Positions 1 to 19,540 of a DNA stretch of 64,000 nt are shown piece by piece. How positions within the stretch are numbered: the first letter of the stretch is position 1; every line of letters starts with the position of its first letter. A program made the translations under genes and the position numbers. The notes beneath the pieces are model-generated. The model was not told the DNA's origin. It ran no database searches and saw only the letters and a program-made list of their open reading frames with translations. Source of the stretch: Marinomonas spartinae (GTDB lineage Bacteria; Pseudomonadota; Gammaproteobacteria; Pseudomonadales; Marinomonadaceae); contig NZ_FLOB01000017.1 of assembly GCF_900089775.1 (NCBI RefSeq), positions 1 to 64,000 on the forward strand, in the 5' to 3' direction.

Positions 1-36
1 GAAGAAGAACGACGGGTATAGGGTTTGGTCATGGGT

Positions 37-293: not shown

Positions 294-375
294 ACCATAG
301 CGCAAATTTTTCCGTTGAGCCTTGCCCTTGACTGCTTTTAGCGAGGGCTCTTACATTTGGAATTAGCTTTTGGTG

Positions 376-1476: not shown

Positions 1477-1592
1477 ACAACGCATCCTGCTTAGGAAAGT
1501 TAACAGGATGCTCTGCAAGATTTGTTCCTAAGTCCCTTAGAGAGGCTGTAAATGAATTTTGTTAGAAGTACATATTACAAAACGGGGCCAAT

Positions 1593-1625
1593 AAAAAGCG
1601 CTTACCTTTCGATAAGCGGTTTTTT
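1593..1625. terminator. bidirectional terminator between ettA and the MscS gene
   Basis: A 6-bp stem (CGCTTA/TAAGCG) is flanked by an A-run on the left and a T-run on the right. It lies between the end of ettA and the upstream side of the MscS gene, so in the minus direction it would end the ettA transcript. Confidence 0.6.
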
Positions 1626-1658
1626 CATTTCTGTACCAACTAATTCTATTAGATAGAA

Positions 1659-3320: not shown

Positions 3321-3493
3321 AAGCGAGTAGTTTCCTGATAAATGGTTTGATAGCTAGTGTAATAAACTGATTGTCTGAATAAAATGCCCACAGAGCGATT
3401 TCGTTACGCTCGGTTTGTGAGGAGTCTCAAGGCAATAAAGTTCGCTAAGAATAACATACTTCCGGTTAGTTCAGAATAACGCCCCGTTCTACC

Positions 3494-4408
3494 TTATTGG
3501 CCGCTGAGCACAATTAAAGCAGCACCAATCACGACCAAAATCGCCCCTATCCAAGCGCCGAACGCTGGACGTTGTTTGGTGGTGATCCAAAGCCCAGGCA
3601 AAATCAACACGGGGACAATGGCGGATAATGTTGTGACGATGCCAACATTGGCGTGACCAACGCCCCATACTAAGACGCTCATACCGACGACCATGCCGAT
3701 GGTTGCCAAGGCGGTAATGCCGATAAAGTCTGAGCGAGTTAATTCGGAAAAAGGTAGGCTACTGGCAGGCCTTCTATGACGATAATAAAGCCCATAAGCG
3801 AGTAGTAAAGCGATGGCGCCAGCGCTGACTCGTACCGTCGATACAGCGATTGGGTCGGCACCATCCAGCAAGGCGGGTTTGCTTAATAGAGCCCCACAGG
3901 CTTGGCCTAGGGCACCACCGAGAGCGAAGAGGACGCCAGTACTGAGTTTGCCTTTGGTTTGCTCCCATTCGTGCAGTTGTTCACGCCTTTTGCCGAATAG
4001 AATCGCGATAATGACGCCGCTGAATACTAGACCACAGGCCAACAGTTGAGTCAGTGAGAGGGCTTCGTTGAGAAAAAGCCAGCTGAGGAAAATCGACATT
4101 GGGGCATTGGTGGCAAATAATACACCCGTTCGACGCGGCCCCAGACGGTGAACGGCCGTAAATAGCATGGTATCCCCAAGGAAAATACCCAGCAGCCCAG
4201 AGAGAATCACTAATGGTGAGTGTTGCCATAAAGACGCATCAAAACGCTGGCCGAGTAGGCTAATCAGGATCAGAAGACAACTGGCAATGGTAATACGTAT
4301 TGTGTTGAAACGCATGGTACCGAAACGATGTATGAGTCTTGGAGCCATCAAACTTGAAATGGTCCAGCATAGGGCGGCAACAAGACCAGATAATTCTGCA
4401 AAAGGCAT
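3494..4408 (-). CDS. EamA/DMT-family transporter
   Basis: An inner-membrane protein of the drug/metabolite transporter superfamily, with ten predicted hydrophobic helices in two homologous EamA halves (about residues 4-140 and 155-300). The motif GDTMLFTAVHRLGP in the first half and VWGVGHANVGIVTTLSAIVPV in the second are the typical internal-repeat segments. Family members export or import metabolites; nothing here points to a substrate. It is transcribed alone, divergent from nrdR, with 270 bases between them. Confidence 0.85.
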   Translation of the reverse strand: MPFAELSGLVAALCWTISSLMAPRLIHRFGTMRFNTIRITIASCLLILISLLGQRFDASLWQHSPLVILSGLLGIFLGDTMLFTAVHRLGPRRTGVLFATNAPMSIFLSWLFLNEALSLTQLLACGLVFSGVIIAILFGKRREQLHEWEQTKGKLSTGVLFALGGALGQACGALLSKPALLDGADPIAVSTVRVSAGAIALLLAYGLYYRHRRPASSLPFSELTRSDFIGITALATIGMVVGMSVLVWGVGHANVGIVTTLSAIVPVLILPGLWITTKQRPAFGAWIGAILVVIGAALIVLSGQ

Positions 4409-4678
4409 GATAATTCCTTATGAGCGACTGGATGTTCGTTATTTAGAACAAAAGCCGATCTTTGTTAATGGCTTACAATAAAACCGACTTCCTGTTAATA
4501 AGGCTGACATTATGGCGAACGTTGTCACGGCCTATGCCATGATATAAATCACCGTCTGCTACGATGGCCAAGTGTTGATTGGTAGCTATATTAAGGTGAG
4601 ATTGGTATGATTCCGAGTATAAAATAGAGCCGTTTAATTGGTTTGTAAACTTCATTTTTTACTCATTTTGGAACCGTC

Positions 4679-5173
4679 ATGCGATGCCCGTTTTGTGGAA
4701 TGCAAGATACCAAAGTTCTTGACTCCCGCCTAGTATCTGAAGGAGCGCAAGTGCGTCGTCGTCGCACCTGTAGTCATTGTCAGGAGCGTTTCACCACGTT
4801 TGAAGTCGCCGAGCTCCAAATGCCTAAACTCATCAAAAGTGATGGCAGTCGTGAGCCTTTTGATGAGGATAAGCTGCGCAGTGGCATTCTTAAAGCAATA
4901 GAGAAGCGCCCCGTGAGCAGTGAATCGATTGAAACGGCGATCGCACGGATTAAAGAAAAAATGCAAGCAACGGGTGAGCGTGAATTGCCGTCTCGTTGGA
5001 CGGGGGAGGCGGTTATGGAAGAACTGCAGCGTCTGGATCAAGTAGCGTATGTGCGGTTTGCTTCTGTCTATCGGAGCTTTAAAGACATTAGTGAGTTTCG
5101 TGATGCCATTGATCATCTTGAAAATCGTCGAGACAGTGGGTCACTGTCTGACGTCAAACAAGAAGGGAAATAA
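4679..5173 (+). CDS. nrdR: transcriptional repressor NrdR
   Basis: An ATP/dATP-sensing repressor of ribonucleotide reductase operons. An N-terminal zinc ribbon has cysteines at 3, 6, 31 and 34, followed by the RRRRTC basic segment that contacts NrdR boxes. An ATP-cone domain covers about 49-139. The length (164 residues) is normal. It leads the classic nrdR-ribD-rib-nusB gene string, and ribD starts only 3 bases after its stop. No NrdR box was recognised near the gene itself. Confidence 0.97.
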
Positions 5174-5176
5174 GTT

Positions 5177-6364
5177 ATGATTCAGAATCATGAATACTGG
5201 ATGGCGAAAGCCATTAAACAGGCTCAAAAAGGTCTTTATTCTACCCATCCTAACCCTCGTGTTGGCTGTGTAATAGTGAAAGACGGGGAGTTACTCGGTC
5301 AGGGCTATCATGTTCGTGCGGGAGAAGGTCATGCTGAGGTGAATGCCTTAGCCGATGCGAAGAGCCGAGGGAATCAAGATATCACGGGTGCCACCGCCTA
5401 TGTGACACTTGAGCCTTGCAGTCATCACGGAAAAACACCACCTTGTGCCGACGCACTAATTAAAGCGGGCATCTCCTGTTTGGTTTATGGGATGCAGGAC
5501 CCAAACCCAGAAGTGTCGGGCAATGGTTTGAAGCGTATCGCCAAAGCCGGTATTGAAGTGGTTGGCCCAATTTTAAAAGCACAATGTGAAGCCTTGAATC
5601 CTGGTTTTATCAAGCGGATGCGCGAAGGGTTGCCTTTTATTCGGGTGAAGCTTGCCATGAGTGTGGATGGTCGGACTGCGATGGAGTCCGGTGAAAGTCA
5701 ATGGATTACGGGACCAAATGCGCGTCAAGATGTACAGCGTTTACGGGCTCAAAGCGATGCGGTTGTGACTGGGATAGGCTCTGTTTTGGCGGATAATCCA
5801 AGTATGACAGTGCGCATTGACCATAACGATCAACCTGTAGACGCTAAAACGGTGCGTCAACCATTGCGTGTGGTAATGGATACGGCTTTATCTATTTTAC
5901 CGGACGCCAAGATTCTTTTTCCCACACAGCAAGCCTGTGTATTTTGCGTGGAAGAAGAAGTGGAATCCGAGCACTTGGATCTCTTACAAGAGCGGGGCGT
6001 GAGGGTACGCTTTGCGAATCGTGGCGAGGATGGTCGATTGGATTTGTTGACCACCATGGAACAATTGGCTGATGATGGCATTAACGAAGTACTCGTTGAA
6101 ACCGGAGCGGAACTTGCTGGGGGCTTTTTACAGGCAGGCTTGGTGGATGAAATTGTCGTGTATATGGCTCCTAAGTTACTCGGTTCAAGCGCACGTCCAA
6201 TGTTCCAATTGCCTTTGGATACCATGGCGGAAGCTTTGGATCTGGAACTTAAATCGGTACGCCAAGTTGGCCAAGATGTGCGCTTGGTCTATGTGCCACA
6301 ATACCTTGAATACGATGATGGGCTGTTGGACATTGATGAATGGGGCGTGGCGCAAGACGCTTAA
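5177..6364 (+). CDS. ribD: bifunctional pyrimidine deaminase/reductase RibD
   Basis: Carries out two consecutive steps of riboflavin synthesis, deamination of the GTP-derived pyrimidine and then reduction of its ribosyl side chain. The N-terminal cytidine-deaminase-like domain shows the zinc site HAE at 52-54 with C81 and C90 (PCSHHGKTPPC). The C-terminal reductase domain begins near residue 150 (RVKLAMSVDGRTA). It is 395 residues, somewhat longer than E. coli RibD because of an acidic C-terminal tail. The next gene is ribB(X), not ribE, which usually lies between them. Confidence 0.96.
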   Translation: MIQNHEYWMAKAIKQAQKGLYSTHPNPRVGCVIVKDGELLGQGYHVRAGEGHAEVNALADAKSRGNQDITGATAYVTLEPCSHHGKTPPCADALIKAGISCLVYGMQDPNPEVSGNGLKRIAKAGIEVVGPILKAQCEALNPGFIKRMREGLPFIRVKLAMSVDGRTAMESGESQWITGPNARQDVQRLRAQSDAVVTGIGSVLADNPSMTVRIDHNDQPVDAKTVRQPLRVVMDTALSILPDAKILFPTQQACVFCVEEEVESEHLDLLQERGVRVRFANRGEDGRLDLLTTMEQLADDGINEVLVETGAELAGGFLQAGLVDEIVVYMAPKLLGSSARPMFQLPLDTMAEALDLELKSVRQVGQDVRLVYVPQYLEYDDGLLDIDEWGVAQDA

Positions 6365-6412
6365 CCTGCGAACAAACGATAGCTTGTCCTAACAATAAGA
6401 AGTGAGATTACG

Positions 6413-7555
6413 ATGGCGTTAAACAGTGTAGAAGAAATTTTAGCCGATATCCGTCAAGGTAAAATGGTCATCTTGATGGATGACGAGGATCGAGAAAACG
6501 AAGGGGACATAATCGTCGCTGCCGAGTGCATTACGCCAGAGATTATCAACTTTATGGCAGTCCATGCCCGTGGCTTGATTTGCCTAACGTTAACGCCTGA
6601 GCGTTGTAAGCAATTAAATCTCCCTTTGATGGTCAACGACAATGGTACGGTGTATTCCACCAATTTCACGCTGTCTATCGAAGCGGCTGAAGGGGTAACC
6701 ACTGGTATTTCGGCAGCCGATCGTGCACTGACGGTAAAACGTGCCGTAATGGCGAATGCCAAACCTTCCGATATCGTTCAGCCAGGTCATGTTTTCCCAT
6801 TGATGGCTCGTGCGGGCGGGGTATTAAGTCGAGCGGGTCATACAGAAGCCGGATGTGATTTAGCGCGTATGGCAGGCTACGAAGGGGCCTCTGTGATCGT
6901 GGAAATCATTAATGACGATGGCACTATGGCAAGAAGACCAGATTTAGAGAAGTTTGCCGAGAAACATGGCTTAAAAATTGGTACAATCGCTGACCTGATC
7001 CATTATCGCACGTTAAATGAGACCACCGTAGAACGTGAAAGCGAGAGCGTGGTACAAACGGAAGCGGGCGAGTTCAACTTAATTACTTATCGCGATACCG
7101 TTCAAGGGCTTTCTCACCTTGCGTTTGTGAAGGGTGAGATTGCTGCGGATGAACCGACGTTAGTGCGTGTGCATGTGGCGGATCCAGCACGTGATTTTGC
7201 TGGCATTATTGGTGAATCGGATGAGCCGCGTTGGTCCATGAGTAAGGCATTGGATTATATCGGGCACGCTGGCAAAGGTGTGGTTGTCTTAGTGGACACC
7301 CATGACAAACCGATGGATTTAGCGAGTAGCTTTGCCACATCGATTCATCCACCCGCGGGTAAAGGACCGGATCAAAGTGGTTCCGGTACGTATTTGACGG
7401 TTGGGACTGGATCACAAATTTTGCGCGACCTTGGTATTCGTAAAATGCGCTTACTAAGCTCGCCTAAAAAGTTCTCCGTGACAGGGTTTGACCTTGAAGC
7501 AGTAGAGTTTATTCCTTACGCGGGGGCGCCTGACGCAACCGTTAAGCAAGATTAG
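6413..7555 (+). CDS. ribB: 3,4-dihydroxy-2-butanone 4-phosphate synthase with degenerate RibA-like half (RibBX type)
   Basis: Makes the four-carbon riboflavin precursor from ribulose 5-phosphate. The N-terminal RibB domain (1 to about 200) is intact, with the acidic EDRENEGD loop at 25-32 and the SRAGHTEAG motif. The C-terminal 175 residues have the length and fold position of GTP cyclohydrolase II but contain no cysteines, so the zinc site needed for that reaction is missing. Such RibBX hybrids are known in Proteobacteria and lack cyclohydrolase activity. A separate ribA must therefore exist outside the window. It is co-transcribed with ribD (48-base gap) and ribH (13-base gap). Confidence 0.93.
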
Positions 7556-7568
7556 AAGAGAGGTTGTC

Positions 7569-8045
7569 ATGAAGGATATTACGACTTACGAAGGGCATTT
7601 TTCAGCGCCTGGTGCGAAATTTGCGCTCGTAGTTGGCCGTTTTAACAGCTATGTTGTTGAAAGCTTGTTAGATGGTGCGGTTGATACTTTGATTCGTCAT
7701 GGTATTCGAAAAGAAGATTTGACGATTGTTCGTGCCCCTGGTGCCTTTGAAATTCCGGTGATCGTTAAGAAAGTAGCGGATCAAGGTAAGTATGATGGCA
7801 TCATTGCATTAGGTGCGGTCATTCGAGGTGGTACGCCGCATTTTGAGTATGTGGCAGGTGAATGTGTGAGTGGCCTTAGCCACGTTGCATTACAATATGG
7901 TATTCCGGTGTCGTTTGGCGTGTTAACCGTCGACACCATTGAGCAGGCGATTGAGCGTGCGGGCACGAAAGCGGGCAACAAGGGGGCAGAGGCGGCAATC
8001 TCTGCTCTTGAGACCGTGGCTGTCCTACGCAGTCTGGATAACTGA
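7569..8045 (+). CDS. ribH: 6,7-dimethyl-8-ribityllumazine synthase
   Basis: Condenses the RibD product (after dephosphorylation) with the RibB product to form lumazine, the substrate of riboflavin synthase. The 158-residue length and the motifs [10 protein letters not shown] and [15 protein letters not shown] (with the catalytic histidine) identify it. It lies in the rib operon between ribB(X) and nusB, 8 bases before nusB. Confidence 0.97.
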
Positions 8046-8053
8046 GGCAAAAA

Positions 8054-8560
8054 ATGAGCGAAGTGGAAACAACCAACGACCAAAACCCAGCACCGAAACG
8101 TAAGGATAAAAAACCTTCACGTTCTCAGATGCGCAGTGCGTCTCGTGGTTTGGCATTACAAGCGGTCTACCAATGGCAGATGAATCAATCCTCTGTTAGT
8201 GAGATCGAAACGCAATTCACCTTGGATCAAGACATGAGTGCTTGTGACAAATTGTATTTTCGTGAATTGCTGCAGGGCGTCACCAGCCGTGCAAAAAAAC
8301 TGGATGGCTTGTTCGAAGAGTTACTGGATCGTCCTTTGAGCGAACTTGATCCCATTGAATTGGCCGTGTTACGCCTTGGTGCGTTTGAATTGTCTGAGCG
8401 TTTGGATGTTCCCTATCGCGTCGCGATCAACGAAGGCGTGGAATTGGCAAAAGGTTTTGGCGCAACTGAGAGCCACAAATACGTCAATGGCATTCTGGAT
8501 AAGCTGGCACAGCGTCTCCGCCGTGAAGAAATCGCTGCTCGTCGACAAGCCAATAAGTAG
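8054..8560 (+). CDS. nusB: transcription antitermination factor NusB
   Basis: An RNA-binding component of the rRNA antitermination complex, which pairs with ribosomal protein S10 at boxA. The all-helical core starts at about residue 25 (SRGLALQAVYQW) and shows the family segment ELDPIELAVLRLGAFEL and the C-terminal AINEGVELAKGFG and YVNGILDKLA blocks. The lysine-rich N-terminal extension of about 20 residues is somewhat longer than in E. coli. It is the last gene of the rib string; a strong terminator follows, and thiL, its usual next neighbour, has been displaced by 10 kb. Confidence 0.96.
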   Translation: MSEVETTNDQNPAPKRKDKKPSRSQMRSASRGLALQAVYQWQMNQSSVSEIETQFTLDQDMSACDKLYFRELLQGVTSRAKKLDGLFEELLDRPLSELDPIELAVLRLGAFELSERLDVPYRVAINEGVELAKGFGATESHKYVNGILDKLAQRLRREEIAARRQANK

Positions 8561-8610
8561 TTGCTAAACAATGATCTAACGCTCACCGAAAGCGTTATTA
8601 ACGGATCGCT

Positions 8611-8647
8611 AAAAAACCATTATTCGTTAACGAATAATGGTTTTTTT
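8611..8647. terminator. strong terminator after nusB
   Basis: Perfect inverted repeat ACCATTATTCG/CGAATAATGGT, with a TTAA centre, flanked by an A-run and a T7 run. It ends the nrdR-rib-nusB transcript and marks the left edge of the segment inserted before thiL. Confidence 0.9.
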
Positions 8648-8781
8648 ATGTCAGCTGTTCGTCCTTTCTCTAACCCAGTCAAGTTAAACAAAATATTACG
8701 TATCAACACCAAAACCCCATAAGCATTCCGCCAGCTTTTGACTAACCTGAAAGAAAGTAGGTAACCACAGTGAGAAAGCGT

Positions 8782-9339
8782 ATGAGAGGAAGTGTTTTTA
8801 CCAACTTCCAAGAAATGGTGGAAGCGCAATTTGGAATGGCATGCTGGGAAACCTTGCTGGCAAATTGTGACTTGCCCAGCGGCGGTATTTATACCGCATC
8901 TGAAAACTATGATGACCAAGAGATTCTGTCTCTGGTGGTGGCTTTGTCCGATGAAACCAATATTCCGGTGAATCAACTCGTCGAAGCATTTGGTCGTTAT
9001 TTGTATAAAGGTTTAATGCACAGCTTGCCACCTTCAATGAGAGATTATCCGGATCTTTGGACGCTGTTAGAGGCGGTGGATTCTGTGATTCACGTGGAAG
9101 TACATAAGCTCTACCCTGATGCGGTGACACCTAAATTAATTGTTCAAGAGAAGTTTGATACAGGCGTGAAGCTATATTATCAGTCGCCTCGTAAAATGTG
9201 TTTATTAGCCATTGGCTTGGTGCATCAGGCGGCGGAAAGTTTTGGAATGTCTGTTTCCATAACACATGAATGTTGTATGCATGAAGGGGCAGATCACTGT
9301 CTATTGCTGGTCGAGCAAGAACAGGTCAAGCAAGACTAA
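8782..9339 (+). CDS. hnoX: H-NOX heme nitric-oxide sensor protein
   Basis: A cytosolic heme protein that senses NO and controls an adjacent histidine kinase. From the start used here (MRGSVF) the proximal heme ligand is H104, and the heme-propionate motif YxSxR is Y133-S135-R137; both have the spacing seen in characterised H-NOX proteins. C140, H162, C165 and C173 match the zinc/redox cysteine site known in Shewanella H-NOX, offset by one residue. The position equivalent to the oxygen-binding distal tyrosine of Thermoanaerobacter H-NOX is leucine, so NO rather than oxygen is the probable ligand. The start was chosen by family alignment; a GTG 12 bases earlier is possible. The kinase gene starts 18 bases after the stop. 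Confidence 0.93.
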   Translation: MRGSVFTNFQEMVEAQFGMACWETLLANCDLPSGGIYTASENYDDQEILSLVVALSDETNIPVNQLVEAFGRYLYKGLMHSLPPSMRDYPDLWTLLEAVDSVIHVEVHKLYPDAVTPKLIVQEKFDTGVKLYYQSPRKMCLLAIGLVHQAAESFGMSVSITHECCMHEGADHCLLLVEQEQVKQD

Positions 9340-9357
9340 ATTTTCAGGGGGGCGATC

Positions 9358-10869
9358 ATGGATTATGAAGCGGCTTTTTTACGTGAACGCACCGCTCGCA
9401 AAAGAGCTGAGAGTATCCTCGAGGACAAAAGTCGAGAACTCCATTTGGCCAATCAATCTTTGAATGACAATGTGGAATCCCTGGAACTGGCTCTGCGAGA
9501 AAATAAGTTTCTTATTCACATTGGCCGTTATGGCCTTGAAAAACCGCGATTACGGGACTTTTTGCCAACGATAGTGAAGGATATGTTGCGCTTGAGTGAA
9601 GTGACATTTGCTGTGTACTTTCATTTTCCCTTTGATCCTAGTCAAGCGGATTTTCGTTCTGATTTACTGCGTAATGAAGAAAATTTAAGTATGGGAAATG
9701 CTTCTATTGCTCGCTCCGACTTAGATTTGTTGGCCTGTGAGATTGAGGAGAAGGTTAGAGAGTCAAGAAGAACGCATTTTCAAACGGTAGCGGTGACGAT
9801 TGATAACGTCGCCATCGATACGGCAGTGGCTCTGCCCATTATCAGCTTGGACTATCTTAGTGGCATCATCATTTTGTTTAGCCAAGGGTTAACATCAAGA
9901 CAGCAAAAAGAAATCGAAATGTTCCGCGTTGGTATAAAGCAGCTGGCGATTATGATGGAACACCGTTATCAAGAAGATAAATTGTTGGCGAGCTATGAAA
10001 ACGTCAAAGTTGCCAATGAAGCGCTGAAAGAGACCCAAAAAAAGTTAGTGCAATCGGAAAAAATGGCTACCGTTGGTCAGTTATCAGCAGGTATTGCACA
10101 CGAAATTAATAATCCGATGGGATTTATTAAAAGCAATATGGGGGCCTTGAGTGGGTATGTTGATGATTTTGTTGAGTATGTGACAGCGGTAAAGTCATTG
10201 GTGGATCAGGCCTTGTTAAGAGGTGACTCGCTAAGTGAATCGGCTAAAGTGTTGGATACCCTGTGGCGGGATATTGATATGGAGTTTTTGTTGGAGGATA
10301 GTAAGAGCTTACTCGAAGAGTCCCAACACGGTGTGAAAAGAATTCTGGATATTGTGGGTGGGTTAAAGCGTTTTTCGCGGCAATCGGATCATCAAAAAGA
10401 GCAGTGCGATATTGTTAGCATCATTGATGAAGCCTTAAACATGGCCCATAACGAGCTTAAATATAAGGGAAAAGTCATCAAAAAAATGGAAACTGTTCAA
10501 CCTGTGATGGGGAAAAGTGGCGAATTGTTACAGGTATTTTTAAACCTGTTCGTGAACGCTTCTCATGCGATGGATGAACAGGGTAAGTTGACGGTGAGTG
10601 TTGAGGATAAGGAGAACGGTGTACAGATCAACGTCGCCGATAATGGCAGTGGCATTGACCCCAAACACTTGGACTCTATTTTTAACCCTTTCTTTACAAC
10701 GAAAGAAGTGGGGGTAGGGACAGGGTTGGGCTTGTCTATTTCTTATGGAATTGTTGAAGCGCATAACGGCACAATCGATGTGACGAGCGAACTAGGTGTG
10801 GGGACAGTGTTTAGTATTTGGCTGCCTTACCTGAATAGCGGCGCAGCGACCTCTGAAGAGGGAGAGTGA
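9358..10869 (+). CDS. hnoK: H-NOX-associated sensor histidine kinase (HnoK-like)
   Basis: A soluble kinase with no membrane segments. It has an N-terminal coiled coil (about 1-50), a sensory GAF-like region (about 60-205), then a dimerisation domain with phospho-accepting H248 in GIAHEINNPMGF, and an HATPase domain with N box NLFVNASHAM, G1 DNGSGID, F box FFTTK and G2 GTGLGLSI. H-NOX proteins in their NO-bound state inhibit such kinases. The order H-NOX, kinase, regulator matches the NO-sensing operons of Shewanella and Vibrio. The kinase stop is 3 bases before the response regulator start, so the genes are translationally close. Confidence 0.9.
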   Translation: MDYEAAFLRERTARKRAESILEDKSRELHLANQSLNDNVESLELALRENKFLIHIGRYGLEKPRLRDFLPTIVKDMLRLSEVTFAVYFHFPFDPSQADFRSDLLRNEENLSMGNASIARSDLDLLACEIEEKVRESRRTHFQTVAVTIDNVAIDTAVALPIISLDYLSGIIILFSQGLTSRQQKEIEMFRVGIKQLAIMMEHRYQEDKLLASYENVKVANEALKETQKKLVQSEKMATVGQLSAGIAHEINNPMGFIKSNMGALSGYVDDFVEYVTAVKSLVDQALLRGDSLSESAKVLDTLWRDIDMEFLLEDSKSLLEESQHGVKRILDIVGGLKRFSRQSDHQKEQCDIVSIIDEALNMAHNELKYKGKVIKKMETVQPVMGKSGELLQVFLNLFVNASHAMDEQGKLTVSVEDKENGVQINVADNGSGIDPKHLDSIFNPFFTTKEVGVGTGLGLSISYGIVEAHNGTIDVTSELGVGTVFSIWLPYLNSGAATSEEGE

Positions 10870-10871
10870 AG

Positions 10872-12197
10872 ATGACAAATACAATGATTGATCAGACTCA
10901 TGTGGTAGAGGCTCCTGGTATATTACTTGTCGATGACGAGGCAAATGTGTTGTCATCCTTGCGTCGCCTCTTTCGTAAATTGAATTGCACCATATACATT
11001 GCCAATAGTGGTCAAGAAGGGCTGGATATTCTCAAAGAGAGCGCTATTGATGTGATCATTAGTGACGCACGTATGCCTGATATGGCTGGTCCTGAATTTC
11101 TGGCGATTGCCGCCGAAACTTACCCAGAAACAACTCGTATTCTTCTTACCGGTTATGCTGATATGGATGCGATTGTGGATGCGGTGAATCGAGGAAAAGT
11201 ATCCCACTATGTTGAAAAGCCTTGGGATGACGAGCGCTTAATTGCTTTGGTAGAAAGTGCGCTGACAAACACCCAACTAAAGAAACAAAATGCACAATTA
11301 CAATGTGTCGTGCAAGAGCAAAATAAAAAACTTAAAGCGCTGAATGACTCTTTAGAAGCGACCGTGAAGGAACGCTCCTCCAAAATTATTCAAATTAATG
11401 AAAACTTAAAAGAAAACTACCGTAATGTCATTGATTTGTTCGCTGGGTTGCTGGACATGCGTCAGCCTAAATCTGAGATACATGTGCCTGATATTGTATC
11501 ATTGGTAAGAGATATGGGCACTCGTTTGCAGATGACTGAGAAAGAAGTGGATGTTCTACAAGGCGCGGCCAAAATGCGCTATATCGGTCAAGTGTGTTTG
11601 TCTGATGAGATTCTGAAAATTCCATACGAGGAATTAACACCCGAGCAAAAGGAAGAATACGAACAGTATCCTATGATGGGCAGTACCTTATTAACCTGTG
11701 TTCGGCAACTATGGCCGATGGCTGAAGTTATTCTTCAGCATAAAGAATACTTAAATGGTAAAGGCTTTCCTAATGGGGACTGGGAAAAGTTTATATCGAG
11801 GAGTGCGCAAATATTAACAGTAGCGAACGACTACATAGAATTGATGAATGGTCGGATGCTAGCAGAGCCTTTAACTCATGTTGAAGCATTGCGTTATTTA
11901 AGTGCTCGAGTGGGTGAAAATTACGCAACAGATATTGTCGAAACCCTGAAAGTAGTGTTGTCGACTTATCAATTAGAAGAACCCATCAATGACCAGCGAA
12001 TCTGGTCGCAACAGTTGGTTCCTGGCATGGTGTTATCGAGAAACCTAGAAAACCATAAAGGGGCTTTTTTGCTGTCTAAAGGACATGTGCTGACTGCACA
12101 CATCATTGAAAAACTGGTTGAATTGGAGCAACAATCTAAGGCTGAATTTAAGTTTTTTGTGATTGTTCCAGAGGGAGTGACCATTCCAGAAAAGTAG
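10872..12197 (+). CDS. response regulator with degenerate HD-GYP domain (HnoD-like)
   Basis: The receiver domain (about 12-130) has the DDE acidic cluster, phospho-acceptor D65 (ISDARMPD) and the KPW lysine. A coiled coil (about 135-175) links it to an HD-GYP-type domain. There, the HD pair of the family motif HDIGK is replaced by RY (AAKMRYIGQVCLSDEIL) and the HHE/GYP motif reads QHKE and GKGFP, so cyclic-di-GMP hydrolysis is unlikely. A C-terminal domain of about 90 residues follows. In Shewanella, a degenerate protein (HnoD) tunes an active HD-GYP partner (HnoB); no active partner is visible here. The start was placed at the ATG at 10872, 7 bases after GGAG. Confidence 0.86.
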   Translation: MTNTMIDQTHVVEAPGILLVDDEANVLSSLRRLFRKLNCTIYIANSGQEGLDILKESAIDVIISDARMPDMAGPEFLAIAAETYPETTRILLTGYADMDAIVDAVNRGKVSHYVEKPWDDERLIALVESALTNTQLKKQNAQLQCVVQEQNKKLKALNDSLEATVKERSSKIIQINENLKENYRNVIDLFAGLLDMRQPKSEIHVPDIVSLVRDMGTRLQMTEKEVDVLQGAAKMRYIGQVCLSDEILKIPYEELTPEQKEEYEQYPMMGSTLLTCVRQLWPMAEVILQHKEYLNGKGFPNGDWEKFISRSAQILTVANDYIELMNGRMLAEPLTHVEALRYLSARVGENYATDIVETLKVVLSTYQLEEPINDQRIWSQQLVPGMVLSRNLENHKGAFLLSKGHVLTAHIIEKLVELEQQSKAEFKFFVIVPEGVTIPEK

Positions 12198-12220
12198 GGG
12201 CTGCGCCCCTTCTTTCTTTC
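12196..12220 (+). terminator. terminator after the H-NOX operon
   Basis: The stem AGGGGC/GCCCCT with a 3-base loop is followed by a T-rich tail. It overlaps the last codon of the regulator gene. Confidence 0.75.
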
Positions 12221-12221
12221 G

Positions 12222-12575
12222 GACAGCCACATGGATAGTTATCAAGTATATTAGGTTTTATTCCATTACCCTTCTAGTAGTAGGCACCATTAAAAATATT
12301 TTTGTAGCCAAATAAAGTGTTTAATTTTATCTGCTAATCTTTTTTCTATCTTATTGATTCCTCTATAAAAAATATCAAAACAATTTTTTATATAACCTAT
12401 TTCGCTTTTTAACTTCTCTTTTTAATTATGGTGTAATTTTTTTGTCGTTTTTTTGTCATTATAAAAAACTAGTATGACCAAGCAGTCAGGATTGATAAGT
12501 GTTTTTTATTTTTTTGCAGTCTAAATTTTTAGTGCTGTATAGATTTTTATTGTCATTTTAATGGTGTTTTAAATT
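12222..12575. other. AT-rich spacer before the TonB system
   Basis: About 350 bases with no convincing gene. The composition turns sharply AT-rich with many T-runs and stays so through the following genes. No Fur box and no clear sigma-70 promoter pair was found, although a promoter for exbD should lie here. Confidence 0.5.
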
Positions 12576-12986
12576 ATGCGAAGTTGGAACGAGCCCACTA
12601 AGAAGCGTCTTCATATTGAAATTATTCCAATGATTGATGTGATGATGTTTTTATTGGTTTTTTTTATTTTGATTAGCTTGAACGTTATACCTGCATTGGG
12701 AATTAAAACATCTCTTCCTGAATCAGGCCACGCTCAAGTATTAAAGCCTCAAAATAACGCTATTATCACCTTAGGCAAAAATGACAGATTGCAGTTAGAT
12801 GGGAAAGATATATCGAAAATCAAAATTCTTGATAGTTTAAAACAGCTAAAAGAGAAAAATAAAAATTTAGTGATTATTATTCGATGCGATAAAGGAATCG
12901 ACGTCCAGCGCTTAGTGTCGATAATGGATTTGCTAAAAGGCAGTGGCTTTAAATCCATTTCTATCGCAACAAAAAATAAAAACTAA
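12576..12986 (+). CDS. exbD: ExbD-type TonB energising protein
   Basis: An inner-membrane component of the proton-driven ExbB-ExbD motor that energises TonB. A single N-terminal transmembrane helix carries the essential aspartate at D21 (PMIDVMMFLLVFF), and a periplasmic domain follows (about 45-136). The 136-residue length is normal. Codon use is AT-rich and unlike the upstream operon. It is the first gene of an exbD-tonB-receptor-exbB string, an unusual order, since exbB usually precedes exbD. Confidence 0.9.
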   Translation: MRSWNEPTKKRLHIEIIPMIDVMMFLLVFFILISLNVIPALGIKTSLPESGHAQVLKPQNNAIITLGKNDRLQLDGKDISKIKILDSLKQLKEKNKNLVIIIRCDKGIDVQRLVSIMDLLKGSGFKSISIATKNKN

Positions 12987-12999
12987 TAAGAACGACAAT

Positions 13000-14013
13000 A
13001 TGTTTTTTATATATAAAAATCGTTATTTTCTGGCATGTTTGCCAGTTTTTATAGTGTTAGGTTTTTGTCTATATTTGATACAGCAACCTTCATTAGACAT
13101 AAAACAAAAATATGACCTATCAACTGTTAATGTCGCCCTTGTGAATGCTGCTTATGCTAATACTTCAAGCTCAGCTCCTAACCCTGTTGAAACTCCTCAG
13201 CCAAAGGTAATAGAAACGCCACCACCTCAGCCTGTTGAGCCGCCAGAAAAGAAGATAGAAGAAACGCCAAAGCCGGTTGAGAAGCCAAAACCAAAACCGG
13301 TTGAGAAGCCAAAACCAAAACCGGTTGAGAAGCCAAAACCAAAACCGGTTGAGAAGCCAAAACCAAAACCGGTTGAGAAACCAAAGCCAAAGCCGGTTGA
13401 GAAACCAAAGCCAAAGCCGGTTGAGAAGCCAAAACCAAAACCGGTTGAGAAACCAAAGCCAAAACCGGTTGAGAAACCAAAGCCAAAACCGGTTGAGAAA
13501 CTAAAGCCAAAGCCGGTTAAGAAGCCAAAACCAAAACCGGTTAAAGCATCTCCAAAAATTAAAAATATAAAAACAGATAAAAATAAAGTGGCTAATAATG
13601 AAAAATCGTTAATGAAAACTCGATCTGATAAAAAAATATCAGGGAAAGTAGGCTCTGAAGTGATTTCTAAAGAAAAAGGCATGCATGCCTCTTCAAATCA
13701 ATCACCTTCGTTAGAGGCTGAATATATACAAAACATACGTTCAGAATTGGAAAACTATAAGCAATATCCAAGAGGGAGAGCGGCCTCATTACAACGACCA
13801 CAAGGAAGTGTTGTTGTATGGCTTAAAGTAGATAGAGCGGGAAATATTATAGATCGAGGGATAGAAAAAAAATCTCGTAGTATGTTGCTTAATAGAGCAG
13901 CTTATCAAAGTCTAAGACGGATAGAACATGTGGCGCCTTTTCCAAAAGGTAGTTTTGATGGACATAACTATTATCGATTTACAGCGACATTTGTATATAC
14001 GGTTGGTCAATAA
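13000..14013 (+). CDS. tonB: TonB protein with long Pro-Lys repeat
   Basis: Spans the periplasm to pass energy from ExbBD to an outer-membrane receptor. It has a cytoplasmic N-terminus and a membrane anchor (about 8-28). A proline-rich region follows, containing eleven copies of the 8-residue unit EKPKPKPV or near variants (about 94-181). Next comes a basic linker, then a C-terminal TonB domain (about 240-337) with QYPRGRAASLQRPQGSVVV. Start: the ATG at 13000 just after exbD; an in-frame GTG at 12943 inside exbD is less likely. The repeat should bridge a wide periplasm. It probably serves the receptor encoded next. Confidence 0.92.
   Translation: MFFIYKNRYFLACLPVFIVLGFCLYLIQQPSLDIKQKYDLSTVNVALVNAAYANTSSSAPNPVETPQPKVIETPPPQPVEPPEKKIEETPKPVEKPKPKPVEKPKPKPVEKPKPKPVEKPKPKPVEKPKPKPVEKPKPKPVEKPKPKPVEKPKPKPVEKPKPKPVEKLKPKPVKKPKPKPVKASPKIKNIKTDKNKVANNEKSLMKTRSDKKISGKVGSEVISKEKGMHASSNQSPSLEAEYIQNIRSELENYKQYPRGRAASLQRPQGSVVVWLKVDRAGNIIDRGIEKKSRSMLLNRAAYQSLRRIEHVAPFPKGSFDGHNYYRFTATFVYTVGQ
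13279..13542 (+). repeat. eleven tandem 24-bp units inside tonB
   Basis: Eleven consecutive 24-base units, each encoding E/K-K-P/L-K-P-K-P-V, run without interruption. They differ mainly at third positions (aag/aaa, cca/ccg, gcc/acc patterns), so the array has diverged somewhat since it expanded. Unit number could vary between strains by slippage while keeping the frame, because 24 is a multiple of 3. It is coding sequence, not a CRISPR array. Confidence 0.95.
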
Positions 14014-14064
14014 GGTATCAATGAGTTGACGATCCGTTCATAAATTATTAAGAGGAGTTAATTA

Positions 14065-16362
14065 ATGAACAATGGTAGGTTTTTCCTAGGACTAATGGGC
14101 GTTGGCTTAATTGGTAGCGTATCCAGCTATGTATTCGCTAGTGACTCAGTCGATGTCGGCACAGTGAGTGTGGAAGGACAAGCGAAGGACAGCGGACAAA
14201 TGGTCCAGGAAGACGCTGCCAAAGCTCGTTCTACCGTCACAAAGGAAGCATTGAATAAACAGGCGTCGACAGAAAATGGCATTGATAAATTAAAATATAC
14301 ACCTGGTATGTCTGTTATCAGTAATGATGATACGGGTCTTAGTGGTTTTCAATTCACTATGCGAGGCATGGATGCAAGCCAAATAGGAGTGACAATGGAT
14401 GGTATTCCTATTAATGACTCAGGCAATTATAAGGTATATCCTAACTTGTTAGGTGACCCTGAAAATCTGGAGGAAGTTTTTGTTACTCAAGGTACGTCAG
14501 ACAGCGATGCTCCCCATATAGGATCTAGTGGTGGCAATATAGGATTGGTTTCTGTAAGACCAACGAAAGATTCAGGGGCTTTTGTTAAACAGATTTTCGG
14601 CAGTCATAACTTAAAGAAAACATTTGTACGTTTCAATACTGGTAATATTGGTGGTTTTGAAAACTATTTATCTCTGTCTCACGCCACCTCGGAAAAATGG
14701 AAAGGTCCTGGTGATATAAAAGCAGATAAAATAGAGCTTAACTCTCTTTGGAGAGGAGATGATGGAAATAGCGTTAATGCTATTATTAAATGGCATAGGC
14801 AAGAAGGTATTGAATATGGAACACCAACATTATCTCAATATCATGCCAACCACAAAGTCGACCTTCCTGATAGAATAGAAACTAAAACTAAAAATGGCTC
14901 TCGATATATTTCAGGTAGCTATTATAAGCAAGCTCAGAACCCGTTTGAAAATATCACCTCTTCCGTTACTGGACGGTTTCATATTAGTGACTCTTTGCTT
15001 TTTACCGTTTCTCCCTATTTCTATGTGGCAAATGGTGGAGGGGCGTCAGCATTTATTCAGAATCTAAACAGTGGTTCTAATAAAGGTGGCATATATGATC
15101 TTAGTAATCTAAAAACTTCAAATCAATATAAAGAAGATGGCGTATTGACATCAGGTAGCTACTATCGCCCCTCTTGGACTGAAACCTGGCGCCCAGGTAT
15201 TACGACAAAATTCGATTGGGCTTCCAGTATGGTCAATAATATTGAAGTGGGCTACTGGTATGAACGAGCAAGACAACGTCAAAGTAAGCCTTATATTCCT
15301 CTGAATAGTGATGGTAGTCCATCAGATATATGGGCTAATTTCGATAACCCTAATCAAGTGAAAGATGCGAATGGTAGAACCGTTCAAGGGCGCCAGTATA
15401 TTACGATTACGCCAGCGCAAAAGATTTTCTTAAATGATACTTGGAATGCCACCGATAATTTGACTTTATTTGGAGGCGTAAATTATACCCATGTTAAGCG
15501 CGAAGGTAATAATAAAGGAAGCTTGTTTGATCAACCTAAAAAAGTGTCGGCCACCTATTCCCATGTGTTACCGAATGCAAGTGTTAAATATCAAGTGAAT
15601 AATAATAATTCGGTTTTTTATAATGTATCTGAAAATATGCGTACACCACAAAATTATGCTCTTTATAATGCTGGTGATTCTATTAGTACAAAACCAGAGC
15701 TAAGTTGGAATAATGAGTTAGGCTGGCGTTATCAATCAGATGCTATCAACTACAGTGCTACACTCTATCATTTAGCCTTTACGAATAGACAACTTTCTAC
15801 TAAAAACAGTGATAACCAATATGTTATGAAAAATATTGGTAAAGTGGTCAACTCGGGAATAGAACTTGAGCTTAGTGGGCTGCTTCCTCAGAACTTTAAT
15901 TATTATGCTTCTTATACTTATACAAAGTCTGAGCAAAAAAATGATATATCCTCTAATGGCGTGACTTTGCCAACAAAAGGTAATCAAGTTGCTGGGGTAC
16001 CAAAGCACATACTTAACCTTATGTTAGGATATGATAATGGTGTCTATTATGGGTCACTAGCTGAGCATATTGTAGGGAAACAATACGGCGATATGACAAA
16101 CGAACAGTCTATTCCTGGTTACGGTATTCTTGATCTTTCGCTAGGCTATCGTATTCCATATGTATCTACGACAATAAAAAAACCAACAGTGCGTTTATCT
16201 GTCAATAACTTGCTCAATAAAGACTACCTTTCTGGTGTTGATTCGAACTCTTTCTCTTCAAAAAAACATACAAGTAATGGTAATACCTATAAAGCAAAAA
16301 GTCCTCAGTATTTAGTGGGGGAGGAGCGTTTTTTTGAGGTTTCACTAGAAGCTAGTTTTTAA
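14065..16362 (+). CDS. TonB-dependent outer-membrane receptor
   Basis: A 765-residue outer-membrane receptor. The signal peptide spans about 1-25 (ending SSYVFA), with a TonB-box-like stretch VDVGTVSVEG just after it. A plug domain covers about 50-165 (the segments KLKYTPGMSVIS, MRGMDASQIGVTMDGIPIND and GSSGGNIGLVSVRP). A 22-strand-type barrel ends in phenylalanine (FEVSLEASF). The ribosome site AGAGGAG is 7 bases before the ATG. It lies between tonB and exbB and so probably uses this dedicated TonB system. The ligand is unknown: an iron chelate or heme is common for the family, but no Fur box is present and a link to the neighbouring microcin-like peptide is possible. Confidence 0.92.
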   Translation: MNNGRFFLGLMGVGLIGSVSSYVFASDSVDVGTVSVEGQAKDSGQMVQEDAAKARSTVTKEALNKQASTENGIDKLKYTPGMSVISNDDTGLSGFQFTMRGMDASQIGVTMDGIPINDSGNYKVYPNLLGDPENLEEVFVTQGTSDSDAPHIGSSGGNIGLVSVRPTKDSGAFVKQIFGSHNLKKTFVRFNTGNIGGFENYLSLSHATSEKWKGPGDIKADKIELNSLWRGDDGNSVNAIIKWHRQEGIEYGTPTLSQYHANHKVDLPDRIETKTKNGSRYISGSYYKQAQNPFENITSSVTGRFHISDSLLFTVSPYFYVANGGGASAFIQNLNSGSNKGGIYDLSNLKTSNQYKEDGVLTSGSYYRPSWTETWRPGITTKFDWASSMVNNIEVGYWYERARQRQSKPYIPLNSDGSPSDIWANFDNPNQVKDANGRTVQGRQYITITPAQKIFLNDTWNATDNLTLFGGVNYTHVKREGNNKGSLFDQPKKVSATYSHVLPNASVKYQVNNNNSVFYNVSENMRTPQNYALYNAGDSISTKPELSWNNELGWRYQSDAINYSATLYHLAFTNRQLSTKNSDNQYVMKNIGKVVNSGIELELSGLLPQNFNYYASYTYTKSEQKNDISSNGVTLPTKGNQVAGVPKHILNLMLGYDNGVYYGSLAEHIVGKQYGDMTNEQSIPGYGILDLSLGYRIPYVSTTIKKPTVRLSVNNLLNKDYLSGVDSNSFSSKKHTSNGNTYKAKSPQYLVGEERFFEVSLEASF

Positions 16363-16418
16363 TTTAGTCTAAGAGAAATTGTTTTCAAATCAAATTTTTA
16401 TTGTTAATAGGGTTTTTC

Positions 16419-17027
16419 ATGAATATAGATATGAATTTTATACATGACGCAACATTTTACATCATGTATTTTGCTTCCATTGTTGGTGTTTTTGTTATTG
16501 TTGAGAGAAGTATTTATTTTTCGTTTACCTTGCGTCAGTCTCGTAAGCTTGAAAAAGTATTAAAACAGCGGATTCGCCAATTTGATGATATTCCGGAGAC
16601 AGTTCGAAGTAAGAATTGTTTACCTCTTGCTCTACTGAAAGAGTTTTTTGAAGGGGTTGGCGAAGTCAGTTCCCATAATGAATTGGAAGATTTAAGCCAA
16701 GCAATCTATATCTCAATGAGAGGGCTGCTCGTCAAACGTCTGTGGATTTTAGAAGCTATCGTTGCCGGGGCTCCATTGCTTGGTTTGTTGGGCACTATTT
16801 TTGGTATTATTGATACATTCAAAGCGTTGGCGGAGTCTGGAGTATCTGACCCTAGTTTGGTGTCTAAGAGTATTGGTTCGGCTTTATATGCGACGGCGTT
16901 AGGTATTGGTATTGCCGTTGTGGGCCTTACTTTTAACCATCGTCTTCAGGATCGCCTTGAGCTGATTAATGATCACTTAAAAATACTGTTACTTCGTGCT
17001 GGTTTAGATATTAAGGAGCAAAAATAG
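16419..17027 (+). CDS. exbB: ExbB-type (MotA/TolQ/ExbB) proton channel protein
   Basis: Forms the pentameric proton channel around ExbD. It has three membrane helices: one near the N-terminus and two in the C-terminal half, with the family motif GAPLLGLLGTIFGIIDTFKAL, and a cytoplasmic loop between helices 1 and 2. It is 202 residues from the ATG at 16419; an in-frame TTG 18 bases earlier is possible. It lies after the receptor gene instead of beside exbD. An AT-rich hairpin (about 17042-17062) lies just downstream. Confidence 0.88.
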   Translation: MNIDMNFIHDATFYIMYFASIVGVFVIVERSIYFSFTLRQSRKLEKVLKQRIRQFDDIPETVRSKNCLPLALLKEFFEGVGEVSSHNELEDLSQAIYISMRGLLVKRLWILEAIVAGAPLLGLLGTIFGIIDTFKALAESGVSDPSLVSKSIGSALYATALGIGIAVVGLTFNHRLQDRLELINDHLKILLLRAGLDIKEQK

Positions 17028-17185
17028 CCTCAAAAGGGGTGATAAATTATTCACAATTTATTTTACTATGATTTCTCTGGTTTCTATAAGGTTTTATATT
17101 TTTATAAAATATCACTGTCATGGATGACTATTAGACTTTCTATTGCGGGTACAAAACTTATCTACGTTTAGGAGGAACTTAGTTC

Positions 17186-17404
17186 ATGTTATTAAATAAT
17201 CATTCTCAAATTTTACCTCTCTCAAATGACGAAATAAATGCAGTTTCTGGTGCTGGTGCTGGTGAATCAACTTCTCAGGGTGCTGCTGCGGGTGCTGTTG
17301 CGGGCTTTGTCGAAGGTGGGCCAGTTGGAGCTGCAATTGGAGCCGTTGTGGGAGGAGGTATAGGCTATGCGGGTTATGAGATTGGCGAATGGTTGGATTC
17401 ATAA
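17186..17404 (+). CDS. microcin/bacteriocin-like precursor with double-glycine-type leader
   Basis: A 72-residue precursor. Its N-terminal leader LPLSNDEINAVSGA (about 10-23) fits the leader pattern cut and exported by C39-peptidase ABC transporters: hydrophobic and acidic positions, then V-S-G-A. Cleavage after A23 would release a 49-residue peptide rich in Gly and Ala with GxxxG-type spacing (GAAAGAVAG, GAAIGAVVGG) that could insert in membranes, ending EWLDS. The ribosome site AGGAGG is strong. The next gene encodes a small membrane protein, a typical immunity arrangement, and an ABC-exporter remnant lies downstream. There is no serine-rich tail as in siderophore-linked class IIb microcins. 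Activity is inferred, not shown. Confidence 0.7.
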   Translation: MLLNNHSQILPLSNDEINAVSGAGAGESTSQGAAAGAVAGFVEGGPVGAAIGAVVGGGIGYAGYEIGEWLDS

Positions 17405-17461
17405 ATAATTAGCCAAGAAAGTGCAGAGCTATTTATGGAAAATATAATGAGGTTTTGTGTG

Positions 17462-17752
17462 ATGTTAAAGTTTTTCGAGAGGTTTTTGGTTTTTCTAGGC
17501 GAGAACCGTATAGTTATTTATACAGGGCTTATACTTCCATCTCTATTTTTTATTATCTTTTCAGTGAAAATCCCCGAGTTTTTTTTATTAATATGGTATG
17601 TTTTTTTAGGAATGGTTGCAGCTGCTAGGTATCGCAATAAAAAAGATAATATAGGATGGTCAATCTATCCTATTTTTATAATATCAATAATTATATTATA
17701 CAAAGTAAGTTATTTTTTGGGAGAGTGGGCGGATAAATTAATTCATCATTAA
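17462..17752 (+). CDS. small membrane protein, candidate immunity protein
   Basis: A 96-residue protein with about three hydrophobic helices (about 17-36, 42-58 and 69-86) and a basic loop AARYRNKKDN. The start was set at the ATG at 17462, nine bases after GAGG; the frame could begin at 17435. It lies 57 bases after the microcin-like precursor gene, on the same strand and in the same AT-rich composition. Small multi-helix membrane proteins next to bacteriocin genes usually protect the producer. There is no recognisable family motif, so the immunity role rests on position alone. Confidence 0.55.
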   Translation: MLKFFERFLVFLGENRIVIYTGLILPSLFFIIFSVKIPEFFLLIWYVFLGMVAAARYRNKKDNIGWSIYPIFIISIIILYKVSYFLGEWADKLIHH

Positions 17753-17872
17753 ATTTTTTTGTTTTTTTTACCTGAACTAAAACAGGAAAATAATTCGCTA
17801 TTTTGGAGTTTTCTATAGTAGTGGGGAACTTTATTTTTGCTCATCATAGATCTCTAAAGAAAAGGTAAATTT

Positions 17873-17995
17873 TTGATTTTTAGGAGAGGGGTTATTGCAA
17901 GAAATAATATTTTTCCAATAGAGTATGTTTTTCTATTTGGCTCCTTCGTTAATGCTAGCTTCAAACCTTATTCTGATATTGATGTTGTCAATTAG
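17873..17995 (+). pseudogene. remnant of a minimal nucleotidyltransferase
   Basis: A 40-codon open stretch contains VFLFGSFVNASFKPYSDIDVV, which is the polymerase-beta-type nucleotidyltransferase signature (G-S, then ten residues, then D-x-D). It stops at a TAG right after the motif, while intact MntA-like proteins continue for another 60 or more residues. It is therefore a fragment. It may have begun with the TTG at 17873. Such proteins often pair with HEPN toxins; no partner is visible. Confidence 0.5.
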
Positions 17996-18111
17996 GTGTC
18001 ACACGAGTGGTGATTGCTCATAGACAAGAGCCTATTCAGTTAGCAGAAAAAATATTTGATGTGGCTAATGCTAATATCCATCAAGTGGTGACTCAGCCAA
18101 TAACAATTTAA
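17986..18111 (+). pseudogene. C-terminal remnant of a bacteriocin-type ABC exporter
   Basis: In the frame of codon 17998, the translation LGVTRVVIAHRQEPIQLAEK matches the H-loop region and end of CvaB/LagD-type peptidase ABC exporters, whose C-termini read like TRIIIAHRPETI. About 41 codons remain before the TAA. Everything upstream (C39 peptidase, membrane domain, Walker motifs) is gone. Its position after the microcin-like precursor supports the idea that the locus once carried its own exporter, now deleted. Confidence 0.55.
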
Positions 18112-18310
18112 AAGTACCATTCTTAGAAGTCTGACTCCACTCTGTTTTTTTCTGAAAGCCAACAATATAGATTACTGCTCAATATGTAATCTGGACATAG
18201 GGTGAAGAGTAATTGAAAAGGTGTTTCTTATTAGACGATACCTTCTTTATTTTTATAAAAATCCCTGGTCGATGCCCTGTGTTGTTCACTTAAGAAGAGA
18301 GTGTTGATAT

Positions 18311-18421
18311 CTACAGCTTAGCGGCTTTTTGAGATTTTAACCGTTTGAGGTGTTGCTGTCTTCTCGAGCGTCTTTCCAAAAAACACCATTCTCTGGGAGT
18401 GTACTTTGGTGATAAATTTCT
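18311..18421 (-). pseudogene. possible decayed gene tail
   Basis: On the minus strand, 36 codons are open and end in TAG, giving a strongly basic tail (KYTPREWCFLERRSRRQQHL, then lysine-rich). The frame is closed by a stop just upstream. It looks more protein-like than chance but I do not recognise it. The rest of 18112-18589 shows no gene. Confidence 0.2.
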
Positions 18422-18589
18422 TCAATAAACGTTAACGTCACAAATCAGGGACGATCCGTTATCATGTGATTGGTCCTGTTTTGTCTCTGACATCCATCCC
18501 ACAATCTAGTATCCTTCTGCTTTCAAATTACACTTGCCAAACATCAGGATGATGATCTGGTCGGTTATGTCAGTAGTAAGGATAGGTTT

Positions 18590-19540
18590 TTGAAAGAATT
18601 CGAGTTGATCAAACATATCTTCCAAGCCTCGATGATGGCGAATACGCGTGGTCGTGAGGATATTTTGCTGGGGATTGGGGACGATTGTGCTCAGGTACAG
18701 GTGCCAGCAGGGCAAAGTCTAGTGTTTTCCATGGATACCTTGGTGGAAGGGCGACATTTTCCTTTTGATGCGGATCCTGTGGATATTGGTTATCGAGCGG
18801 TGGCAACCTGTGTGAGCGACTTGGCTGCTATGGGGGCAAAGCCCGCTTTTTTTACCTTGGGACTGACGATTCCAGAGTCGGATCCCCAGTGGTTAGCAGG
18901 GTTAGCCCAAGGGATGGCGGAGTTGGCCGAACCAATAGGGCTGATTCTAGTGGGCGGAGATACCACTAAAGGGCCGTTAACCCTCACCTTGCAAGTACAT
19001 GGATACGTGGAGGCTGATCAAGTACCATTACGAGCTAATGCCAAAGTCGGTGACGATATCTACATCACTGGTTTATTGGGCGATGCCGCTGCCGCTGTTC
19101 CAATCGTGACTGGAGAGCTGCATGTGACCAGTGAACGATTTGATTATTTTTATGAGCGCTTTTGGCGGCCTCAACCTCGCTTAATTGCTGGTATGGCGCT
19201 TAAACGTGTTGTGCATTCCATGATGGATATTTCCGATGGCTTAGCACAAGATATTCAGCATATTTTAACGGCTTCCAACGTGGGAGCGCATTTGGAAGCA
19301 AACGCTTTGCCAATTTCGTCAGAGTTAGTGGCGTGGCAACCCGAGTCGGCGTTATCATTAGCCTTAACAGGTGGTGATGATTATGAGTTGTGTTTTACTG
19401 CCCCATCAAGCGCTGCCCAAGACATTCAACTGATCATTCAAACGTTGCATCTACCCTGTGTGAAAGTTGGGACTATTGTTGAGTCTGGCTTTACCATTAA
19501 CGGATACGATGGCGATCTTGGTGGTTGGCAGCATTTTTAA
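18590..19540 (+). CDS. thiL: thiamine-monophosphate kinase
   Basis: Phosphorylates thiamine monophosphate to the active cofactor thiamine diphosphate. The 316-residue length and motifs identify it: LLGIGDDCA, FSMDTLVEGRHF, CVSDLAAMGAKP, GGDTTKGP, MDISDGLAQD and LTGGDDYELCF. The start is a TTG with AAGGA 7 bases upstream. In relatives it follows nusB directly; here the 10-kb insertion separates them. pgpA follows. Confidence 0.96.
   Translation: MKEFELIKHIFQASMMANTRGREDILLGIGDDCAQVQVPAGQSLVFSMDTLVEGRHFPFDADPVDIGYRAVATCVSDLAAMGAKPAFFTLGLTIPESDPQWLAGLAQGMAELAEPIGLILVGGDTTKGPLTLTLQVHGYVEADQVPLRANAKVGDDIYITGLLGDAAAAVPIVTGELHVTSERFDYFYERFWRPQPRLIAGMALKRVVHSMMDISDGLAQDIQHILTASNVGAHLEANALPISSELVAWQPESALSLALTGGDDYELCFTAPSSAAQDIQLIIQTLHLPCVKVGTIVESGFTINGYDGDLGGWQHF

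Follow-up and report, generated by a model that had tools for sequence, protein, structure and literature searches.

Class II microcins are recognized, as set out in two accounts (PMC11494933, PMC9746304), by a leader with a GG or GA site and hydrophobic residues at positions -4, -7 and -12, by a C39 exporter encoded nearby, and by small immunity proteins that are often membrane-bound. Known members contain 12–26% glycine and usually have leaders of 15–18 amino acids, according to the first of these (PMC11494933). The second describes microcin immunity proteins as nearby, 51–216 amino acids in length, and tending to be transmembrane (PMC9746304). It also reports that 81.9% of microcin hits in E. 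coli assemblies are accompanied by a C39 exporter within that assembly (PMC9746304), and since the share is 81.9%, some of the assemblies with a microcin either lack such an exporter or are drafts.

The locus considered in this study consists of a gene for a microcin-like precursor and, right behind it, a gene for a small membrane protein, both within what I will call the window, the whole stretch of 64,000 nucleotides that was analyzed. No published account of the locus was found in literature searches. The reading that I favor, and consider reasonably likely, is that the pair is what remains of a class II (microcin V-like) locus: a precursor and a probable inner-membrane immunity protein whose exporter has been lost. 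If this is true, then a class II microcin-type locus outside the Enterobacterales is in decay, the precursor and the candidate immunity gene having been kept and the exporter not. As to its kind the locus is unremarkable, yet it exemplifies clearly a microcin-like locus in decay.

The precursor and the gene behind it

The precursor gene (17186..17404, + strand) begins with ATG and encodes 72 amino acids. Its ribosome binding site, AGGAGG, recognized by its sequence, lies at 17170..17175 (+ strand), separated from the start by a spacer of 10 nt. The leader takes up residues 1–23 and ends in VSGA; its C-terminal end, LSNDEINAVSGA, is of the double-glycine type with a GA site, relative to which V occupies position -4, I position -7 and L position -12. 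Residues 24–72 form a core of 49 amino acids, 51% of them Gly or Ala, with a calculated pI of 4.05. Glycine accounts for 16 of the 72 residues (22%), 15 of the 16 lying within the core, and the precursor contains no cysteine. The GA site and the three hydrophobic positions thus agree with the class II leader, and the glycine content falls within the known range (22% as compared to 12–26%), while the leader, at 23 amino acids, is longer than the usual 15–18. The sequence-only reading, made before any database was searched, had described a 72-residue product with a C39-type leader, a Gly/Ala-rich mature part and a strong ribosome site, all of which is borne out.

ORFs of 35–160 amino acids were scanned with a regular expression of my own for the leader followed by a Gly/Ala tail. 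It matched once in the window and five times in four C39 clusters of the same genus (L050, L053–L055), and it found nothing in three other C39-bearing loci (L056–L058) or in L003. The background was provided by other fetched loci, 501,683 bases that overlap one another in part, with the additional requirement that the tail be 15 residues or longer, and after the removal of 18 entries (the window, copies of its own locus, and the loci of the four clusters; L056–L058 were kept). None of the 3260 background ORFs matched. Scans for promoters and terminators gave results close to the means of shuffled sequences. A search for Fur boxes with a consensus sequence reached at best 12/19 before exbD and 11/19 before the precursor, and 79 places across the window score at least 12.

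None of the library models reaches its own cut-off with the precursor. The Pfam model MccV, which requires 27 bits, reaches 20.9 (E=5.4e-4), and Bacteriocin_IIc, which requires 27.1, reaches 19.7 (E=8.2e-4); both span leader and core. About the same score as that of MccV is attained by models of glycine zippers, Gly-zipper_Omp from Pfam (E=1.6e-3) and PdsO from NCBIfam (E=8.6e-4), and all that NCBIfam offers are weak matches of the glycine-zipper/OmpA-like kind.

No close homologue of the precursor was found among 94 relatives and 369 genomes of the class, and there were no matches at all to plasmids. The relatives gave 19 matches at E≤0.1 and the class genomes 52 at E≤0.01, the precursor itself being counted in each (leaving 18 and 51). 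Most of the distant matches look like unrelated glycine zippers, and many are glycine zippers inside larger proteins. Thirty-eight non-self loci were translated, 14 from the search of the relatives and 24 from the search of the class genomes, and in none does an ORF at the precursor match show the leader motif; seven of the 38 have no start-to-stop ORF in frame, including L007 from genome G047, whose leader was seen otherwise. Two candidates from the same genus, in G037 and G004, were discarded as glycine-zipper ORFs without a leader. The same fate befell six matches in viral contigs: none of their frames has a leader, and while one measures 108 amino acids between stops, the other five are long (574–1844 amino acids).

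The sequence-only reading had named the lack, in any genome, of homologues beside C39 exporters as part of what would refute it, and a weak one does occur. G047, of the same genus, possesses a relative of the precursor (E=3.7e-4) that is a double-glycine peptide within a C39-exporter cluster. This peptide scores 27.9 bits with Bacteriocin_IIc, above the cut-off, making G047 the only one of 48 genus genomes to do so. The same genome-wide search found no match in the host genome at E≤0.05 and thus missed the precursor.

The alternative to be taken most seriously, although I judge it unlikely, is that the 72-residue protein is a small glycine-zipper membrane protein, with an N-terminal part that looks like a double-glycine leader only by coincidence. 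It can call on the weak matches to Gly-zipper_Omp and PdsO, on the glycine zippers in larger proteins that make up many of the distant matches, and on the failure of the genome-wide Bacteriocin_IIc search to find the precursor, which last result led me to lower slightly my estimate of the favored reading and to raise slightly that of this one. A chance resemblance does not sit well with the lack of any leader and Gly/Ala tail in the 3260 background ORFs, with the exporter relic 590 nt downstream (described below), or with the presence of the G047 relative in a C39 cluster.

The second gene (17435..17752, + strand) begins 30 nt past the stop of the precursor and encodes a membrane protein of 105 amino acids, considered a candidate immunity protein on grounds of position, size and hydropathy. 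Its start codon is uncertain, because the ribosome site looks weak by eye. Hydropathy peaks at about residues 23–67 and 71–99, and isolated windows that begin at 4 and 17 also stand out, so that there would be room for two or three membrane helices. A small multi-helix membrane protein directly after the precursor is just what had been claimed from the sequence. The protein has no credible homologue among the 94 relatives, the 369 class genomes, plasmids or viral contigs: five matches to the relatives (E≤0.1) and 17 to the class genomes (E≤0.05) include the protein itself, the others are weak and several contain stops, and plasmids and viral contigs gave no match whatever. A frame in G005 was rejected as a relative, as the match lies antisense within a large ORF and looks like chance. 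Because the protein has no relatives, its assignment to immunity is by position only.

What is left of the exporter

Downstream of the pair lie two gene fragments. The first (17867..17992, + strand) is the relic of an MNT-type nucleotidyltransferase, its N-terminal part only, recognized by Pfam model NTP_transf_2 (22.7 bits, cut-off 21) and by the NCBIfam model of the MntA antitoxin, the latter below its cut-off (E=1.9e-4). It may stem from a former toxin-antitoxin gene. The piece ends two bases upstream of the second fragment (17995..18108, + strand), 38 codons that lie 590 nt downstream of the precursor and that I assign, by similarity to five C39 exporters, by shuffling and by plasmid annotations, to an ABC exporter with a C39 peptidase, namely to its ATPase end at the C-terminus.

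The best match of this relic is to the C-terminal end of the C39 exporter of G052 (44% over 25 amino acids, E=1.2e-5), and it matches the C39 exporters of G047, G046, G038 and G025 at 41% over 29 amino acids (E from 1.0e-4 to 1.9e-4). All five of the C39 exporters tried are thus matched, as compared to no match at E≤1 with the LapB-type exporter of the host. Dinucleotide shuffles of the relic, run against the exporters of G052 and G047, never reached 27.7 bits in 500 trials, the best scores being 25.0 and 22.3, respectively. Against the 94 genomes there are six matches at E≤0.1 including the relic itself; those in G052, G038 and G046 are C39 exporters, and the two remaining are in G055 and G008. 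Plasmid records matched weakly (77 of them, with E up to 10), and 13 among the best 15 of the 77 are annotated "peptidase domain-containing ABC transporter". The relic finds no match in Pfam or PDB, and an NCBIfam model of peptide-export ABC proteins matches it at E=0.0095.

Nothing more of a C39 exporter (PCAT) is present near the precursor. The interpretation of the pair in the sequence-only reading survives as to a precursor plus a candidate immunity gene but had missed that only the 38-codon relic of the exporter remains. A comparison of two presumed membrane fusion proteins, from L054 and L056, with the region 17753–18590 gave nothing at E≤1.

The rest of the host genome contains one C39 domain found with PF03412 at E≤0.001, in a LapB-type ABC protein (L003, 6847–9180). 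Aligned with three C39 exporters, the domain has P, Q and R in place of Cys, His and Asp, and it scores above the Pfam cut-off despite the replaced catalytic triad. The neighbors of the protein are presumably GGDEF/EAL-type, LapG-like and HlyD-like genes, the HlyD-like gene adjoining the exporter. No C39 exporter with a catalytic triad was found in the host assembly, which is in 40 contigs with a listed completeness of 99.98%. Nearly all genomes of the genus have a comparable weak match to PF03412, and in four the best score exceeds 120 bits. A LapB-type C39 domain without the triad is thus a trap for automatic exporter calls. The relic at 17995–18108 and the status of the triad-less LapB-type domain as the sole C39 match are newly recognized here.

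The precursor is probably an orphan, neither matured nor secreted, because the exporter beside it is a 38-codon relic and the sole C39 domain of the host lacks the triad. The opposite possibility is an active microcin system, in which processing and secretion of the precursor are carried out by some other exporter of the cell, which may have escaped recognition as a C39 protein. Both ORFs are open, the ribosome site of the precursor is strong, the genome is in 40 contigs, and the figure of 81.9% leaves some microcin-bearing E. coli assemblies that lack a C39 exporter or are drafts (PMC9746304), all of which speaks for an active system. In view of the single C39 domain found with PF03412, LapB-type and without a triad, and of the completeness of 99.98%, I regard this possibility as quite doubtful.

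If the pair is indeed a remnant, then the intact ancestor would have acted in the manner of microcin V: a C39 exporter would have cut the precursor after GA and exported the core, which would have entered kin cells and damaged their membrane, the membrane protein shielding the producer. The step of cutting and export would be missing in the present host, and the 105-residue protein may go on shielding the cell from this microcin when others produce it. Bacteriocin ecology leads one to expect such resistant non-producers. The loss of the exporter may have occurred either before or after the arrival of the block in which the pair resides.

The inserted block and its TonB system

A block of about 6.2 kb (12191..18369), upstream of thiL, has the pair at its end; the limits of the block were drawn from a blastn comparison with G005 and from composition. 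The block is A+T-rich, with a GC content of 0.362 as compared to 0.446 for the window. G005, which by its thiL (96%) is nearest among the 47 other genomes of the genus, has 107 bp where the block stands, between the same flanking genes, and the identity of the DNA, about 90% up to 12190, resumes at about 91% from 18370. Because the gap between nusB and thiL in five other loci of the genus is filled by 0.6 to 5.4 kb of differing DNA, the site appears to be variable in the genus; in the window the variable region extends over 8560–18590. A kinase/response-regulator set (8770–12197) is found in the window and in G005 and has no blastn alignment in those five loci. No repeat was found within the left end of the insertion, one imperfect 26-nt pair occurs inside 17000–18600, away from the end, and a comparison of left with right end yielded a 19-nt match (E=0.05) along with some shorter matches, all of them away from the borders.

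The precursor is preceded in the block by four genes on the + strand: ExbD (12576..12986; Pfam ExbD, 2.2e-29), TonB with PKPKPVEK repeats (12943..14013; Pfam TonB_2, 1.6e-6, and TonB_C, 4e-6), a TonB-dependent receptor of 765 amino acids (14065..16362; Pfam barrel, 8e-48, and plug, 5e-14) and ExbB (16401..17027; Pfam MotA_ExbB, 2.8e-21). The proline-rich spacer of TonB (13270–13510 of the window) is made of tandem KPKPVEKP-type repeats. The receptor scores 151.5 bits with an NCBIfam siderophore-receptor model, below the cut-off of 223.5, and no counterpart in the remaining 47 genomes of the genus reaches E≤1e-60. A single locus with a homologous receptor (54%) was detected in Pseudomonas sp. 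GV071, and a search of 390 genomes of the order, scoring two candidates per genome, gave two besides the host at E≤1e-90, both from one genus. In all three homologous blocks, with receptor identities of 48–54%, the order ExbD-TonB-receptor-ExbB is kept.

The precursor was not found in the three homologous blocks by either the leader scan or tblastn, and when the four C39 clusters of the genus were compared with ExbD, TonB, the receptor and ExbB, none of these was found at E≤0.01 over the 8–15 kb examined, the stretch from G047 ending at the end of its contig. With no microcin found at the blocks elsewhere and no block found at the clusters, the TonB genes look like a separate passenger unit, a result that is suggestive, not conclusive, the cases being few and partly related. 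The functional link between receptor and peptide, which the sequence-only reading had proposed in the form of uptake or recognition, was set aside on this two-sided pattern of co-occurrence. It is very improbable that the inserted block is a mobile cassette in which a microcin plus immunity gene has been joined to a dedicated TonB-ExbBD-receptor system, such that the cell recognizes or scavenges the peptide of rivals and has kept immunity after dropping the cost of secretion. Least credible of all is a single functional unit, made up of the TonB genes and the microcin, that serves peptide uptake or recognition, an idea encouraged by their adjacency on one strand of the same insertion and by the killing of cells by microcin V via the outer-membrane receptor Cir (PMC12511343) but opposed by the three blocks (two of one genus) with no microcin found and by the four clusters with no block in the DNA examined. 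A TonB receptor block that adjoins a microcin need not be the uptake route of the peptide.

The two TonB-type blocks for which family results were obtained have neighbors of some interest: that of L096 (7679–13765) adjoins a 5'-nucleotidase, and that of L107 (2248–11365) adjoins genes for phospholipase D and PhoD, hinting that the receptor may serve organic phosphate compounds. A gene in L107 with a product of 605 amino acids encodes an M20 peptidase and not a 5'-nucleotidase.

C39 clusters of the genus and described microcins

The closest comparison within the genus is with the clusters of G047, G046, G038 and G025 (L050, L053–L055), which, like the host locus, combine double-glycine, Gly-rich peptides with C39 exporter sequence. 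In the clusters the exporter is open over 694 amino acids and keeps the triad, whereas in the host locus it is a relic. The clusters (that of L050 extends over 1–7957) also carry a JmjC/cupin-like gene, tested with Pfam in G047 (L050), and what appears, from a motif, to be an M16-like peptidase gene, and the TonB/receptor block was not found in them. One of the peptide ORFs of L050 seems to shift frame close to the end of the contig.

Among described systems, the host locus most calls to mind the microcin V/colicin V family (class IIa; PF17508, MccV). It shares with that family a GA leader of the double-glycine type, hydrophobic residues at -4, -7 and -12, a Gly-rich core, an adjoining small membrane protein and the trace of a C39 exporter downstream. 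It differs in that the precursor falls below the Pfam cut-off, has a leader of 23 amino acids and lacks cysteines, and in that the exporter is a relic and no gene for a fusion protein was found beside it. The Mcc17978 locus of Acinetobacter baumannii is likewise a class II microcin locus outside the Enterobacterales, and, as described, differs from the host locus in that protection is by a cupin-like protein and the transport genes are present (PMC10333792). The layout of the four genus clusters recalls that of the Mcc17978 locus as there described (PMC10333792).
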